Source: Chloroflexia bacterium
Lineage (GTDB): Bacteria; Chloroflexota; Chloroflexia; Thermomicrobiales; UBA6265
Reading direction: 5' to 3'
Assembly: GCA_013697005.1 (NCBI GenBank)
Contig: JACCXM010000403.1
Coordinates: 1 to 36,299, forward strand
DNA: 36,299 nucleotides
Part shown: one piece after another, positions 1 through 23,340 of the stretch
Position numbering within the stretch: position 1 is the stretch's first letter
Layout of the letters: each line of letters starts with the position of its first letter
Made by a program: the position numbers and the translations under genes
Notes under the pieces: model-generated
What the model saw: only the letters and a program-made list of their open reading frames with translations
Told to the model about the DNA's origin: nothing
The model's database searches: none

Positions 1-932
1 TCGATGAGGTGTTTGTGACCGCCGGGCTCGCGCAATGTGGTGATCTGTTCCCAGGCCTGCCCACCCTCCAGCGAGACATGCAAGCGCGCCTGCCGCACGT
101 GACGGTTGCGTAGCGCGGCGCGATCGAATGCACGAAGAACGAGCCGGGTGATGGCGATGACGAGCGTTTCCCGGCTGGTGGCTGGCGCCGGTAGGGTGAG
201 CGATTCGCTGACGGTTTCTGGTTGTAACCGGGGATGCACCGGCTCGCGGTCGTTGCCTCGCGCCAGCTCCCAGGCTCTTCGCCCTTCGGCTCCGAAGCGA
301 GCCTGTACGGCCGCTGGGGGAAGGGCGGCGAGATCACCAAGGGTGCGTAATCCCAATCGTTCCAGGCGGCGTTGCTTGTCTGAGGAGAGAGGAAGCAGCG
401 AAATCGGCGCCGTGGCGAGAAACGATTCGATCAGGGTAGGATCGACCACCTGAACCGTGCCGGGCGCTGCCTCATAGGCGGCAACGCGCGCCGTGAACTT
501 GTTCGGGGCCACCCCGGCGCGCGGCCGGAGGAGCGCCGGAACGGTGGCGAGCAAGCGCTCGGTAGCAAGAGAGGGAGGACCAAGCAGGCGGTCCAATCCA
601 GTCAGGTCGATGGCATAACACCCTGGATGTCCGGGATCGCTCTCGACCGCGGGACTGAGCCTTTCCAGCCCGGTGACAATCTGTTCGATCGCCGCGCTTT
701 CGCGTACCGGATGCGGGGTGAGAATCACCGCTTCTGGACATAGAGCAACAGCCTCACGTAAGCCCAGACCGGTCCGGACACCCTGCATCGCCGCTTCTGG
801 GGTGGCGTCGTAGACGATTGGCCGCTCGCCTTGCGCTGGGCCCAACAGCAGTGGCGCTCCGTCGAGCTCCGGGCGATTGAGCAGGGCCACCCGCAGGGCG
901 AAATGCGGAATCACGATACAGGCGATGGACAC
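1..932 (-). CDS. imuB: ImuB-like Y-family DNA polymerase homologue, partial (3' end outside window)
   Basis: The reverse frame is open from a GTG at 932 to the window edge, about 310 codons, so the C-terminus is missing. The protein reads as a Y-family polymerase: an IDLTGLDRLLG segment near residue 108, a palm/finger motif GVAPNKFTARVAAYEA, then the helix-hairpin-helix part (RRLERLGLRTLGDLAALP) and the little-finger start. The catalytic carboxylates of active DinB/UmuC enzymes (DxD near the N-terminus and the SxDE motif) are not seen: the N-terminus reads CIVIPHFALR and the second motif AIDLTG. This is the known state of ImuB, the non-catalytic partner of ImuA and DnaE2 in damage-induced mutagenesis. 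The start is supported by AAGGAGG just upstream. A promoter with a LexA box lies 50-80 bases upstream, so SOS induction is likely. No imuA or dnaE2 is in the window. Confidence 0.85.
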   Translation of the reverse strand, partial: MSIACIVIPHFALRVALLNRPELDGAPLLLGPAQGERPIVYDATPEAAMQGVRTGLGLREAVALCPEAVILTPHPVRESAAIEQIVTGLERLSPAVESDPGHPGCYAIDLTGLDRLLGPPSLATERLLATVPALLRPRAGVAPNKFTARVAAYEAAPGTVQVVDPTLIESFLATAPISLLPLSSDKQRRLERLGLRTLGDLAALPPAAVQARFGAEGRRAWELARGNDREPVHPRLQPETVSESLTLPAPATSRETLVIAITRLVLRAFDRAALRNRHVRQARLHVSLEGGQAWEQITTLREPGGHKHLI

Positions 933-15872: not shown

Positions 15873-16859
15873 ATGATCAATGCGGTGCAGGTGAAGGAAG
15901 GCCGGATCGTGGTTCCGCCGCGAACAATTGGACTGGTCGCCGCGCGAAGTAAACAAGAAGCTGGAGATTTAGCGCTAAGCGTTGCCCAGACGCTGATCGC
16001 CGCCGGCGCCGCGGTCGTCCCTGAAGACGAACTTGGCGCGGCCGATGGTGATTCGGTCGATGTAATCGTGGTTCTCGGCGGCGACGGACTGATGATGCGT
16101 GCCGCGAATACATTTCCTGACATTCCGCTACTTGGAATCAACTTCGGCAATGTTGGATTTCTCGCGTTGGTGGAGCGCAGAGACTGGAGAAAGGCAGTTG
16201 CGACTCTGCTCACCGGGGAGTATGCAATTCAGGAAGGGCCCACTCTGCAAGCGACGTTAGTCCGCGAAGCCGACATCGTTCCTGAGGGATGGGCAATTAA
16301 TGATGTCGTGGTCCGTTCTGGCATGCGCATGGTGGACGTCGAGATCTACATTGATGGTCAGTACGTCAACACGTATCCGGGCGATGGCATGATCATCGCC
16401 ACCCCGCACGGCAGCACCGCGTATTGCATGGCCGCGGGGGGGCCGATTCTGACCGCGGGTGTGCGGGGATTCGCGATTGTGCCTATCTCTTGCCACAGTC
16501 CGATTCGAACCCCCTTTGTGGTACCGGAAGAGGGAATCATCGAGATGGTCATTGCCAACGATCACGATGCGTCGCTCATCCTGGATGGCCGAGAAGTGGT
16601 TCGCCTTGATCGTTTCGATGTTGTCCGCGTGGCTCGAGGGGAGCACGCGTTCCGTTTGGTGACGCTGGGGTCGACGAATTTTTATGAAGCATTTCGAACC
16701 AAATTCAACTTTAGAATTAGACCGGATGCGGTACCTAGTCGCTCGACGAGACAATCGACCAGGCAAAGCACTACCCCACCGAGAGGTGGCGGATCAGGCA
16801 AGTCATCAGGCGCTGGCGCGGACGAGGCGATTGACTCCGGGAGCGAACAAACGTTCTGA
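15873..16859 (+). CDS. nadK: NAD kinase
   Basis: ATP-dependent phosphorylation of NAD to NADP. The 328-residue protein contains the GGDG motif (69-72), LLGINFGNVGFLA, the ND pair (143-144) and the long glycine-rich motif GDGMIIATPHGSTAY (170-184). After the catalytic domain, from about residue 285, comes a low-complexity Ser/Thr/Gly tail with two copies of RQST that is not part of the normal fold. The last codons and the stop lie inside a LexA box that controls ruvB, so the 3' end doubles as a regulatory site. It follows the SEDS gene after 113 bases with no obvious promoter. Confidence 0.93.
   Translation: MINAVQVKEGRIVVPPRTIGLVAARSKQEAGDLALSVAQTLIAAGAAVVPEDELGAADGDSVDVIVVLGGDGLMMRAANTFPDIPLLGINFGNVGFLALVERRDWRKAVATLLTGEYAIQEGPTLQATLVREADIVPEGWAINDVVVRSGMRMVDVEIYIDGQYVNTYPGDGMIIATPHGSTAYCMAAGGPILTAGVRGFAIVPISCHSPIRTPFVVPEEGIIEMVIANDHDASLILDGREVVRLDRFDVVRVARGEHAFRLVTLGSTNFYEAFRTKFNFRIRPDAVPSRSTRQSTRQSTTPPRGGGSGKSSGAGADEAIDSGSEQTF
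16844..16857. promoter_or_regulatory. LexA box upstream of ruvB, inside the end of nadK
   Basis: CGAACAAACGTTCT has the GAAC-N4-GTTC core with both half sites intact. It covers the place of the -35 element relative to the ruvB -10 (16869-16874) and overlaps the nadK stop codon. ruvB is an SOS gene in many bacteria, so repression by LexA fits. Confidence 0.8.
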
Positions 16860-16880: not shown

Positions 16881-17972
16881 ATGGGTGAACCTCTGTCCAC
16901 CGCCATCCAAAGCAGCGCACAATCAAACGTTGGGATCGATCGGCCGAGTACACCCACGTTGCTGGTTGAGGACGCGCCCCTAGAGCGAAGCTTGCGTCCC
17001 CGCCGGCTGGCCGAGTACATCGGCCAGGAACGGGTCAAGGAGACGCTGCAGGTTTTCATCGACGCGTCGAAGCAGCGCGGCGAAACGCTCGACCATGTGC
17101 TTTTTTACGGTCCACCTGGACTTGGCAAAACGACTCTGGCATCAATCATTGCCGTCGAGATGGGAGTCAGTCTGCGCATTACCTCCGGACCGGCGATCGA
17201 ACGTCAAGGTGACCTGGTCTCGATTTTGACCAATCTGAAGGCGGGCGATGTTCTTTTCATCGATGAAATCCATCGGCTGAATCGGGCAGTAGAAGAAGTT
17301 CTTTATTCCGCAATGGAGGACTTTGCGGTCGACATCGTGCTTGGCAAGGGACCCGCGGCAAGGACGATGCGAATCAATCTTCCCAGGTTTACGCTTGTCG
17401 GCGCCACGACACGCTTGGCGCTGCTGACAGGTCCCCTGCGTGACCGTTTCGGATCCGTGTTGAGACTCGGTTTTTACAGCCGGGCAGCGATGGAAGAAAT
17501 CGTGCATCGGTCGGCACGTGTACTCGACGTGCCCATCTCCGAGGAAGGCGTGCGAGCGCTGGCAGAACGAGCCCGCGGGACCCCACGTGTGGCTAATCGC
17601 CTGCTGAAGCGAGCGCGGGACTTTGCGGAGGTGCGAGGTGAAGGCGCGATCACCGACAAGATCGCAAGCGACGCATTGCAGATGCTTGATATCGACGATC
17701 TGGGACTCGACGAGATCGATCGACGCATTCTGCGTTCAATCGTGGAAAAGTTCAACGGCGGTCCAGTTGGGATAGATACGCTTGCGGCGGCGATCAGTGA
17801 AGAAACTGACACGATCATGGACGTTTATGAACCGTATCTGATCCAACTCGGGTTTTTGCAGAGGACTCCGCGCGGCCGTATTGCAACGGATGGCGCTTAC
17901 GCTCATCTTGGTTATGAAGCCCCTGCGGAATCCGCTCGCCAACCAGTTCTCTTTGGTGGGGCCAAAGGTTGA
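16881..17972 (+). CDS. ruvB: Holliday junction branch-migration ATPase RuvB
   Basis: Hexameric AAA+ motor that with RuvA moves Holliday junctions. Seen in the 363 residues: [12 protein letters not shown] (39-50), Walker A GPPGLGKT (77-84), Walker B LFIDEIH (125-131), sensor-1 LVGATTR, arginine-finger region GPLRDRFG, sensor-2 [12 protein letters not shown] and the winged-helix DNA-binding C-terminus ([11 protein letters not shown] onward, ending at [13 protein letters not shown]). It has about 25 extra residues at the N-terminus compared with most RuvBs. LexA box and -10 lie directly upstream. ruvA and ruvC are not in the window; ruvB-queA adjacency is common in bacteria, and the TGA overlaps the queA TTG. 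Confidence 0.97.
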
Positions 17973-19846: not shown

Positions 19847-19879
19847 GCGGGCCGGACGGGCATACACCGTCCGGCCTGC
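19847..19879. terminator. Stem-loop between convergent genes
   Basis: GGCCGGACGG (19850-19859) pairs with CCGTCCGGCC (19867-19876) around a 7-base loop; three further pairs, one G-U, extend the stem. It lies between the cyclophilin stop and the oppositely oriented 73-residue gene and may stop both transcripts. No T-run follows, so it is not a textbook intrinsic terminator. Confidence 0.55.
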
Positions 19880-19896
19880 TGATCGACATCATAACC

Positions 19897-20118
19897 TCAA
19901 GCGGCGACATCCAGTTCGCGGCACACTTCTTCATACTCGCCGAGCAGCTGAAACCAAAACGCTTCCCACTCCGAAACGTCGGCGCCAGAGACTACGGCTT
20001 CGTCGATGCGGCGATATCCATCATCGAGACGTTGCTCGAGAGAGCTCCGCTTCGCACTCAGGCAGCCGCTCAAATGCACAGGATCACGGTCGATGCCGGT
20101 TTCTTCCGCGTCGTTCAT
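19897..20118 (-). CDS. Small acidic helical protein of unknown function (73 aa)
   Basis: I do not recognise a named family. The product is acidic and should be mostly alpha-helical: a first helix around residues 25-42 (LEQRLDDGYRRIDEAVV) and a second around 49-70 (WEAFWFQLLGEYEEVCREL) rich in aromatics. It starts 27 bases after the stop of the Rad52-like gene, with GGGAG 10 bases ahead of its ATG, so it is the second gene of a LexA-boxed operon. The two-helix shape resembles small accessory proteins seen beside phage or plasmid recombination genes, but this is impression only. No other promoter is visible. Confidence 0.75.
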   Translation of the reverse strand: MNDAEETGIDRDPVHLSGCLSAKRSSLEQRLDDGYRRIDEAVVSGADVSEWEAFWFQLLGEYEEVCRELDVAA

Positions 20119-20145
20119 CGAATTGCGCTCCCAGTCCCCTCACTC

Positions 20146-20775
20146 TTATGAGGCTATCTTGTCGGCCCCGGCCTGGGTCTGAATGCGATCGATGAGCGTC
20201 GAGGCATCCCTGCGGCTCAATGCCACAGCCTGGACGCCGAACTCCTGAACGGCACGTTCATCGAGGGACGGGCCATCGAGACCTGCTTCGCGAGCGACCG
20301 CTTGCAAGTAACGGAGCTGCCGCTGTGTGGCTGCCTGATCTGGACCAATGGCCGCGATGGCGATCGGAGCTTGGCGTTCCTGCGCCGTGCTGCCTCTCGC
20401 CGACGCCGCTGACTTCACTGGGGCGTCGACTACGCGTCCGGCCGCAGCGCCGAACTCGAAATCGGGACAGAATTGGGTACCAAACCCGAGGGCACCGAGA
20501 GCGCGGCCAATTGCTTTGGTTTCGGCCTTCTCCAGATAATCGCGGAAGTCGCCGGCGGTCTCGCTACCCCAGCCAGTCGAGGAGCCACCATCCGGAATCG
20601 CGATCCGGGCGCGAAAAACAGCGATGTTATCGGCGTGAGACACCAACTCTGTTTCGACCGTCGCGTCAGGATGTCGATCACGGAGCCAGACCAGCCGCCA
20701 TTTCACTTCCAGGTAGTCTGACCCGTTGACGCGGGTGAGATAGCGGGCGGGTTCAAACGGGGTTGCCACTGCCAT
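20146..20775 (-). CDS. Putative Rad52/ERF-like single-strand annealing protein, SOS-controlled
   Basis: The 209-residue product has two parts. Residues 1-108 carry YLEVKWRLVWLRDRHPDA (21-38), an alternating strand region and the helix EKAETKAIGRALGALGFGTQ (82-101). That last pattern, a conserved A-E-T..A..RAL...G(Y/F)G, is what I associate with phage and bacterial Rad52/ERF/RedB-type annealing proteins. After a linker, residues 148-200 (TQRQLRYLQAVAREAGL..., SRRDASTLIDRI) form a small helical domain often appended to such proteins. Family assignment is from memory of motifs and uncertain. GGAGGAA lies 5 bases before the ATG. A near-consensus promoter and a LexA box precede it, pointing to DNA-damage induction. 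It sits back to back with dnaN-recF. Confidence 0.6.
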   Translation of the reverse strand: MAVATPFEPARYLTRVNGSDYLEVKWRLVWLRDRHPDATVETELVSHADNIAVFRARIAIPDGGSSTGWGSETAGDFRDYLEKAETKAIGRALGALGFGTQFCPDFEFGAAAGRVVDAPVKSAASARGSTAQERQAPIAIAAIGPDQAATQRQLRYLQAVAREAGLDGPSLDERAVQEFGVQAVALSRRDASTLIDRIQTQAGADKIAS

Positions 20776-20795
20776 GGTATTCCTCCATACGGATT

Positions 20796-20809
20796 AGAAC
20801 TTTTGTTCT
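20796..20809. promoter_or_regulatory. LexA box upstream of the Rad52-like operon
   Basis: AGAACTTTTGTTCT: both half-sites (GAAC and GTTC) match the boxes at imuB and ruvB. It lies just downstream of the -10 element, over the likely transcription start, where a repressor would block initiation. Confidence 0.85.
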
Positions 20810-20817
20810 GATACTGA

Positions 20818-20846
20818 AGTTTAGAGGATACCGAAACCTCTGTCAA
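20818..20846 (-). promoter_or_regulatory. Near-consensus sigma-70 promoter of the Rad52-like operon
   Basis: On the minus strand TTGACA (20846-20841) is followed after exactly 17 bases by TAAACT (20823-20818). This is among the best promoters in the window. The LexA box begins 8 bases downstream of the -10. Confidence 0.85.
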
Positions 20847-20973: not shown

Positions 20974-22116
20974 GTGAATGTCTCCTCTCCGCAGGAACTC
21001 CTGCAGCGATCTCTGGCTCAAGTAAGCCGTGCTGTCGCGACCAAAACGACGTTCCCAATCCTGAGCAACGTACTCATTGATGCTGATGGCGAGAGTCTTC
21101 GATTGGCGGCCACCAATCAAGAAATCGGCATCTCGTCCAGTATTCCCGCACAAGTCGATGAACCAGGGCGGGTCACGGTGGATGCGCGGTTGCTCTCAGA
21201 ATTTGTGAACACGCTGCCCCACGAAACCGTACGCCTTTCCACCGACCTGGGCCGGCTCATGCTCAAGGTGAACGGGCTCGGCGCTGACGCCGAGATAAAC
21301 GGAATCGATGCGGAGGAATTTCCCTTGTTTCCGCGCCAGGAGGACGGCGCATTCACGGCGAGTGTTGACCCTCAGATGCTGCGCGAAATGATTGGGCTCG
21401 TGGAGTTCGCGGCAGCCAGCGACGACAGCCGACCAGTTCTGGCTGGCGTTCTGATTCGATTCGAGGACAACAGAATCATCATGGCGGCGGCAGACGGATT
21501 CCGGCTCGCCGTGCGCGAAGGTGAACTCGTATCGTCGGTCCTGGAACGTCTCGACATCATTGTGCCGGCCAGGGCGTTGCGTGAGCTGGCGCGAATTATT
21601 GGCGATCGAACCGAGCCGATCGCACTGAGAGTAACCCCGAATCGCGGGCAACTTCTCGTCGAAACGGAAGATACGGAATTCTATTCTCGTCTCATCGATG
21701 GGACGTTTCCGGATTTCCGGCAGATTGTACCTCCCGAGTTCGCCACGCGAATCGAGTTGGGCCGGGATGATTTTCTCGCCGCGGTGCGGCGGGCGGGCTT
21801 TTTTGCGCGTGACAATAACGACGTCGTAAGGCTGAGCGCGAAGATGTCCGACGACGAGCTGGCAGCGGGCAACGTTCAGGTGTCCGCCAATGCCGCCGAA
21901 CGGGGCAGCAGTCAAAGTGACGTGGCCGCGGCGATCCAGGGTCCGGAAGGTCAGATTGCCTTCAACAGCCGATACCTGGTCGATGTGTTGAGCGTGTTAC
22001 GGTCCGCACGAGTCATGCTCGGGATGAACGGGGCAAATCAGGCGGGCGTTGTGCGCTCTCTCGATTCAGATTCCTATACTTACGTCATCATGCCCATGGT
22101 CATCGGCGCCAACTGA
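20974..22116 (+). CDS. dnaN: DNA polymerase III beta subunit (sliding clamp)
   Basis: Ring-shaped processivity clamp for the replicative polymerase. The 380 residues follow the three-domain beta plan: SPQELLQRSLAQVSRAVATK at the N-terminus, TTFPILSNVLIDAD, second-domain GVLIRFEDNRIIMAAADGFRLAV and the third-domain C-terminal VRSLDSDSYTYVIMPM(V/R). GTG 20974 is preceded by AGAGGAA at a good distance, and an in-frame stop lies upstream, which fixes the start. recF follows 21 bases later. dnaA is not in the window, so the dnaA-dnaN origin arrangement cannot be checked. Confidence 0.97.
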   Translation: MNVSSPQELLQRSLAQVSRAVATKTTFPILSNVLIDADGESLRLAATNQEIGISSSIPAQVDEPGRVTVDARLLSEFVNTLPHETVRLSTDLGRLMLKVNGLGADAEINGIDAEEFPLFPRQEDGAFTASVDPQMLREMIGLVEFAAASDDSRPVLAGVLIRFEDNRIIMAAADGFRLAVREGELVSSVLERLDIIVPARALRELARIIGDRTEPIALRVTPNRGQLLVETEDTEFYSRLIDGTFPDFRQIVPPEFATRIELGRDDFLAAVRRAGFFARDNNDVVRLSAKMSDDELAAGNVQVSANAAERGSSQSDVAAAIQGPEGQIAFNSRYLVDVLSVLRSARVMLGMNGANQAGVVRSLDSDSYTYVIMPMVIGAN

Positions 22117-22137: not shown

Positions 22138-23340
22138 ATGCGGTTACGGACACTCGAGCTCAATGAGTTTCGATCATTTCGCAGGCTATTCCTGCCGCTT
22201 CAACCGGCTGGATTCCGCGCGGTAGGACCAAACGCAAGCGGGAAGTCGACGCTGTTGGAAGCAATGGCGATGCTGGCTACGACGCGGTCGCCACGCACCT
22301 CTGCCGAACGTGAAATCGCCAATTGGCAAAGTGGCTCGGACCTGGCAATCCCGCCGTACGCAAGGCTTCGCGCCGAATTCGAACGGGGTGATGGTTCGCA
22401 CCATATTGAGATTGGCCTCACGCTCGATGGCGGCGAGTCTGGAGCGCTGAAGAAGAGGACGCGTTTCGATGACCGCTCCGTTCGCAGCGTAGACGCTGTT
22501 GGTCAGCTCAAGACGGTTTTGTTTTCTCCTCAAGATGTAGACCTGATTTCAGGTTCGCCGAATCTCCGCCGACGCTACCTGGATATGGCTGTAAGTCAAG
22601 CGAGTCGAAGCTATCTGCGCGCCCTATCTCGATATAACCGGGTGCTGGAGCAACGGAACAGCCTACTGCGAGGATTCGCGAGAGAGAAGGTCAGTTCCGA
22701 GGCATTGGGTCCAGCTCAAGAAATGGCATTCTGGAATGCAGAGCTGATCTCTACGGCCGTAGATGTTATGGCGATGCGACTCGGCGCCGTGAATTTTCTC
22801 AATTCGCGTGCGAAGTTTCATTTTTCAATGTTGACGGGGGACGAAACATTGTCGGTTGCCTATGTCGCGCCGCGCGTCAACCTTCCCGAAGAAGAATGGG
22901 TTGGCGTGGCGTGGCCAGCGACTCCGCAAAGCATCCGTCAGGCATTGGCGGCGTCATTTGCGGCGAGTCTGGAACGGCTTGTGGCGGAGGAGCTGCGCCG
23001 CGGAATAACCGTCATCGGGCCACATCGTGACGATATTGAGGTGATGGCCAGCGGCGTTGATCTTGGTAGATTCGGATCGCGAGGACAGCAACGCCTCGCC
23101 GTACTGGCGATCAAACTTGGGGAGCTTGATTTGCTGGAGGATGCTGGGGGAGAAACACCGGTGCTTCTGCTCGACGATGTCTTGTCGGAGCTCGATGGCC
23201 GTCACCGTGAAAAGCTGGTCAATCTGCTGTCAGCGCGGGACGCTCAAATTTGTGTGACGTCGACCGACGACCGCGATCTAGCGTCGCCTGGACTTTCGCA
23301 TTTGCCACGTCTCCGGGTTGCGGACGGTGCGGTTGGATGA
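22138..23340 (+). CDS. recF: DNA replication and repair protein RecF
   Basis: SMC-like ATPase that marks single-strand/double-strand junctions and works with RecO and RecR. In the 400 residues: MRLRTLELNEFRSF start, Walker A GPNASGKST (30-38), the FSPQDVDLISGSPNLRRRYLD segment, the ABC signature region FGSRGQQRLAVLAIKL and Walker B PVLLLDDVLSELD, with the CVTSTD sensor near the end. Length is slightly above the usual 360-370. Its position after dnaN is conserved in bacteria, and recR lies 18 kb upstream in the same window. Confidence 0.96.
   Translation: MRLRTLELNEFRSFRRLFLPLQPAGFRAVGPNASGKSTLLEAMAMLATTRSPRTSAEREIANWQSGSDLAIPPYARLRAEFERGDGSHHIEIGLTLDGGESGALKKRTRFDDRSVRSVDAVGQLKTVLFSPQDVDLISGSPNLRRRYLDMAVSQASRSYLRALSRYNRVLEQRNSLLRGFAREKVSSEALGPAQEMAFWNAELISTAVDVMAMRLGAVNFLNSRAKFHFSMLTGDETLSVAYVAPRVNLPEEEWVGVAWPATPQSIRQALAASFAASLERLVAEELRRGITVIGPHRDDIEVMASGVDLGRFGSRGQQRLAVLAIKLGELDLLEDAGGETPVLLLDDVLSELDGRHREKLVNLLSARDAQICVTSTDDRDLASPGLSHLPRLRVADGAVG

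Follow-up and report, generated by a model that had tools for sequence, protein, structure and literature searches.

Organization of the P1-P2 locus

The window analyzed here is a 36,299-nucleotide stretch of a Chloroflexia genome (contig JACCXM010000403.1), and two adjacent ORFs, P1 and P2, are found on its minus strand, divergent from dnaN. P1 (20146–20775) encodes 209 amino acids from an ATG start preceded by GGAGG, and its product is predicted to comprise a Rad52-type core, a linker, and a helical C-terminal domain. P2 (19897–20118) begins 27 bp past the P1 stop codon and encodes 73 amino acids, identified as a helical hairpin from the ORF, its conservation, and a structure model. A motif scan placed a −35 hexamer, TTGACA (20841–20846, minus strand), and a −10 hexamer, TAAACT (20818–20823, minus strand), upstream of P1 with a 17-bp spacing; the resulting promoter (20818–20846) is the sole match in the window to TTGACA-N16-18-TANNNT, for which 0.2 matches are expected by chance and at least one is found in 19 of 100 shuffles. 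TTGACA with 17-bp spacing is also present upstream of most P1 relatives. A palindromic LexA (SOS) box, AGAACAAAAGTTCT (20796–20809), lies at or just past the transcription start; within it, GAACTTTTGTTC (20797–20808) is immediately downstream of the −10 hexamer.

On one side of the pair, dnaN (20974–22116, plus strand), which adjoins P1 in 26 of 30 loci, is followed by recF (22138–23340, plus strand), assigned by a family match (RecF/SMC N domain). On the other, a cyclophilin gene is convergent with the P1-P2 operon, and a GC-rich hairpin without a T run, situated between the two gene ends (19847–19879), is a possible terminator. The promoter, the LexA box, and the two ORFs divergent from dnaN-recF are present as the initial annotation had described them. 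It had also reported that integrase and phage structural genes are absent, and none was found among the neighboring genes examined; core genes flank P1-P2 on both sides.

Conservation of the LexA box

Three GAACNNNNGTTC sites occur in the window, a mildly unusual number (0.75 expected; three or more in 3 of 100 shuffles). As the window alone is insufficient to identify the element, its assignment as a LexA box draws on conservation across relatives. We examined 55 chromosomal P1 genes, comprising that of the window and 54 relatives from related Chloroflexota genome contigs. A strict GAACNNNNGTTC site was found no more than 150 bp upstream of the start in 42 of the 55; first-order resampling gave a mean of 0.14 (maximum, 2), and random stretches taken from these loci gave 1.1. 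Twelve of the remaining 13 genes carry a one-mismatch box at the same place; such boxes read TTAGCACAGATGTTCGTG and similar in Thermomicrobium, and AGAACATGTATTCTA in a group related to Dehalococcoidia. The start of the 13th gene, L078, is unclear.

The lexA gene of the same genome (C35:8721) is preceded by GAACATGTGTTC, and a strict box is found at all 29 readable lexA genes of the order, this one included. Because every readable lexA of the order has the same box, the GAACNNNNGTTC element is, judged by sequence, the SOS box of this lineage. The operator overlaps the P1-P2 promoter and is identical to the lexA operator; its 14-base form, AGAACNNNNGTTCT, occurs seven times in the 4.05-Mb genome, and two of these occurrences are in the window. 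Many Ktedonobacteria-like P1 operators read TAGAACNNNN(A/T)TTC, a form that is also found upstream of the lexA genes of those genomes; in this group, the P1 operator has drifted to the form of its own lexA. Control of the operon by LexA, as proposed in the initial annotation, is thus supported by the conserved box at P1 relatives and by the same box at lexA.

Further LexA-type boxes were observed in the window. At 991–1004, the same box precedes an impB/mucB-family (ImuB-like) polymerase gene (3–932, minus strand; PF00817, 3.7e-16) located beside ftsK. Another, GAACAAACGTTC (16845–16856), lies at the end of an NAD kinase gene and precedes ruvB (gene at 16881) by 24 bp; several related loci have boxes beyond P1, at a distance like that of the ruvB-side box.

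P2 is a conserved helical hairpin

Among 158 genomes of the class, 47 have P2 relatives, with 11 invariant residues (R30, L31, G34, I38, G45, W51, E52, W55, L58, L59, and Y62). P2 is modeled with confidence as a hairpin of two helices (13–43 and 49–72; pLDDT, 84). Comparison with PDB folds identified generic helical hairpins only (E ≥ 0.16), and a PDB sequence search with the P2 alignment gave nothing meaningful, the matches being designed helical fusions and flagellins. The ORF is genuine, and its product is a helical hairpin conserved among relatives.

P2 is found behind P1 in 21 of 30 loci, and two of the remaining nine have P1 at a contig edge. In six genomes of family f8, P2 is found, under a LexA box, after a divergent P1 (P1′) that keeps the C-terminal domain. 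In G008, the gene ahead of P2, again under a box beside dnaN, is a P1 with only the C-terminal domain left. A 131-aa P1 remnant (L224, 2462–2857) has lost the Rad52 core and kept the C-terminal domain with its -VAS end; the LexA box, the downstream P2, and the dnaN neighbor are all retained. P1 and P2 homologues were also observed in one cluster in Candidatus Chloroheliaceae (L088/L220), with ∼1.5 kb of small genes between them. P2 is repeatedly linked to proteins that share the P1 C-terminal domain, which suggests that this domain could be the P2 contact.

P2 may alternatively act outside the P1 pathway, as an independent SOS product (a factor in a growth or division checkpoint, for example, or a modulator of the clamp or replisome) whose place in the operon is a matter of convenience; we consider this a credible possibility, albeit with the odds somewhat against it. 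In two groups, f2 and f3 (L223, L230, L227, and L228), a solitary P2 gene next to dnaN has a LexA box of its own; most f7 copies of P2 are solitary and lack a box, and no P1 is found beside P2 in these genomes; and several lineages, including Thermomicrobium, Thermalbibacter, and Dehalococcoidia, have P1 without P2. In Dehalococcoidia and relatives, P1 is located among other core genes, often with the box present. Against an independent role, P2 follows three P1 architectures (P1, P1′, and a P1 that consists of the C-terminal domain only), always under one LexA box, and P1 in Ktedonobacteria-like genomes also has a comparable small ORF behind it: 15 of the 24 P1 loci examined there have a 64- to 99-aa ORF with a P2-like pattern directly downstream. 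The register of this ORF is the same as that of P2, but the profile comparison gave a P value of 0.13, and we do not claim it as a P2 homologue. The initial annotation had presented P2 as the dedicated partner of P1. The usual position after P1 agrees with this; the solitary P2 genes under their own box beside dnaN, the P2 genes behind divergent or core-less P1, and the P1 genes that lack P2 do not.

P1 has a predicted Rad52-type fold

The AlphaFold model of P1, obtained with 71 sequences (mean pLDDT, 84), consists of a Rad52-type core (residues ∼7 to 103), a disordered linker (∼113 to 141), and a helical C-terminal domain (∼148 to 208). The modeled core has an α-β3-α topology, with an N-terminal β hairpin before the first helix. 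A search of solved structures with Foldseek identified the Sak single-strand annealing protein (SSAP) of phage 80α (E value, 5e-5), human RAD52 (2e-3), and Mgm101 (3e-2), all with a probability of 1.00, and many further matches were found among structures of viral proteins labeled Rad52, Erf, or Sak3. TM-scores over the query are modest (0.27 to 0.41) for the Rad52-type matches, because the model has two domains and a flexible linker. The three-helix C-terminal domain matched the Redβ C-terminal domain (CTD) (6m9k_D; TM-score to target, 0.72; rmsd, 2.0 Å; probability, 1.00), but at an E value of only 0.1.

At the level of sequence, neither P1 nor its 27 relatives matched Pfam Rad52_Rad22, ERF, or SSAP_Sak at E ≤ 1, and no Pfam or NCBIfam family reached its cutoff on P1; a match of DUF3072 to the C terminus fell below the curated cutoff. 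Searches of PDB sequences with P1 and with the P1 alignment gave no meaningful match. Profile comparison with the Sak alignment (hhalign) produced a plausible register that was not significant (E value, 0.04; probability, 1.3%). P1 matches two PHROGs without an assigned function (27776 and 11717). Given that the fold is matched and the Pfam Rad52, Erf, and Sak families are not, P1 appears, on the evidence of the model, to be a separate, sequence-distinct branch of the Rad52-type annealing proteins, outside the described families by sequence. The assignment of P1 to the Rad52/ERF/Sak proteins therefore stood with respect to fold, for which the modeled structure retrieved Sak, RAD52, and Mgm101, and failed with respect to a Pfam or profile match.

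It is unlikely, in our judgment, that P1 is instead a DNA- or RNA-binding protein of the double-stranded RNA-binding domain (dsRBD) kind that does not anneal strands. Such domains share the α-β3-α topology of the core and are found among the lower-ranking Foldseek matches, and a precedent exists in DdrA, a Deinococcus Rad52 homologue needed for genome integrity (PMC515370); P1 could then be a regulator or a gap-protecting binder of ssDNA/dsDNA ends, a role like that proposed for DdrA. Sak and RAD52, however, rank 2 to 4 orders of magnitude better, and the N-terminal β hairpin before the first helix, the Redβ-like C-terminal domain, and the recombination-module neighbors of distant phage homologues all argue for an annealing protein.

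Distribution and chromosomal residence of P1

P1 relatives were found in 67 of 101 related genomes, a count that takes in a longer paralogue, as well as in other Chloroflexota, some Clostridia, and one Armatimonadetes genome. In several Chloroflexota lineages the gene is on the chromosome; a plasmid search gave no match. The longer paralogues form one well-supported clade in the tree. The copy in the genome studied here encodes 277 amino acids (G000:C6:22803–23636; locus L169, 10804–11637) and is downstream of a DEAD-box helicase gene; a LexA-type box, GAACATGCGTTC, is located 84 bp upstream of it, and the copies of several relatives also have boxes. In single-contig genomes of family f11 (L346 to L348), a protein was observed that contains two P1 C-terminal domains and from which the Rad52 core is absent; in L346, TTGACA followed by the box-like TTGAACATTTGTGC is found upstream of its gene.

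P1 relatives are also common on viral contigs, and some nest among the chromosomal sequences in the tree. Those distant phage homologues that are annotated sit in replication-recombination modules with a helicase, a primase, a Holliday junction resolvase, or SSB. A Sak-based scan of viral contigs returned near-identical copies only. That P1 was captured from a phage recently, as a recombinase, and is a prophage remnant beside dnaN by chance, is a reading to which the abundant phage homologues and the nested viral sequences (which may instead be captures from hosts) could lend support, but it is very improbable and largely refuted by conserved synteny: P1 adjoins dnaN in 26 of 30 loci, the LexA box and P2 are found across the order, LexA-boxed chromosomal P1 genes are present in other Chloroflexota, and the box was detected in 0 of 15 viral copies checked and P2 in no viral locus. 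The conserved chromosomal locus agrees with the description of P1-P2 as resident in the initial annotation.

The C termini of the two proteins resemble, by sequence, protease tags. Thermomicrobiales P1 proteins end in -AS, with a hydrophobic residue plus AS in 17 of 28, and P2 proteins end in -AA or -VA; the preceding residues of both tails are not conserved. In Ktedonobacteria-like genomes, the C terminus is -KAS or -RAS in nearly every P1 protein and in many small proteins encoded downstream of P1.

Proposed role of the P1-P2 operon

We propose that P1 and P2 form a resident DNA-damage operon repressed by LexA, an SOS-induced module that repairs gaps or breaks by single-strand annealing and in which P2 is an accessory; we assign this reading a probability of about 0.75. 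The regulatory signal and its conservation, the operon, the folds, and the chromosomal residence of the genes are supported by computation. In the proposed mechanism, LexA bound at the transcription start would block the P1-P2 promoter; upon DNA damage, LexA would be cleaved, RNA polymerase would use the strong promoter, and P1 and P2 would be made. The Rad52-type core of P1 would bind single-stranded DNA, probably as an oligomer, and would anneal complementary strands at gaps or resected breaks, while the C-terminal domain, which resembles that of Redβ, would attract a partner as Redβ's does; SSB, a nuclease, and P2 are the candidates. In the same SOS repair step, P2 would most likely have an accessory or regulatory part. 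We infer the annealing activity, oligomerization, and DNA substrates of P1, its contact with P2, and the induction of both genes from these features, and on this hypothesis the operon would represent a new gap- or break-repair pathway.

A broader proposal, which we offer as speculative, is that an SOS annealing pathway extends throughout the Chloroflexota. It would consist of a chromosomal Rad52-type annealing protein and a small helical modulator that would work together with it and, beside the clamp gene, sometimes by itself; a C-terminal -AS/-AA protease signal common to the two would shut both down once the SOS response is over.

Comparison with known systems

Bacterial Rad52-type annealing proteins are known mostly from phages. 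Both these proteins and LexA regulons are of already known kinds; neither the protein families nor the open-licence literature searched contained a resident, LexA-controlled Rad52-type protein with a sequence family of its own and a conserved small partner, and no report of the P1 family or its LexA control was found in that literature. The presence of resident, LexA-controlled P1 in several lineages within a deep-branching phylum would make strand annealing part of the ordinary SOS program rather than a loan from phages, and P2 would be a handle on the control of such annealing. Cultured relatives such as Thermomicrobium or Sphaerobacter, in the latter of which the box, P1, and P2 are all present, would allow this question to be tested.

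The Bacillus YnzC-type proteins (DUF896) are small two-helix proteins from an SOS operon. P2 resembles YnzC in size and shape only, and none of 20 P2 members matched DUF896 in Pfam at E ≤ 1.

The closest solved structural match of P1, over both the core and the C-terminal part, is Sak from Staphylococcus phage 80α (Pfam SSAP_Sak), which is of similar size (∼207 aa); like Sak, distant phage homologues of P1 are located near SSB or recombination genes. The two have no significant sequence or profile similarity, however, and Sak is phage borne, whereas P1 is chromosomal and predicted to be LexA controlled. The Rad52-type core fold is also common to P1, eukaryotic RAD52, and yeast Mgm101, but identity is ∼15%, the C-terminal domain of P1 is different, and no part of P1 could be identified as a region that binds RAD51 or RPA. 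λ Redβ may be alike in the C-terminal domain, to judge from the structural match at an E value of 0.1, and a Redβ-CTD-like domain was reported earlier to be common to several SSAP families (PMC8093625); the P1 core is of the Rad52/Sak type rather than that of Redβ. Like P1, DdrA is a chromosomal Rad52-type protein tied to genome maintenance after damage (PMC515370). Going by the description of DdrA, P1 is set apart from it by the absence of a Rad52_Rad22 match, by the LexA box, by dnaN beside it, and, usually, by P2 downstream.
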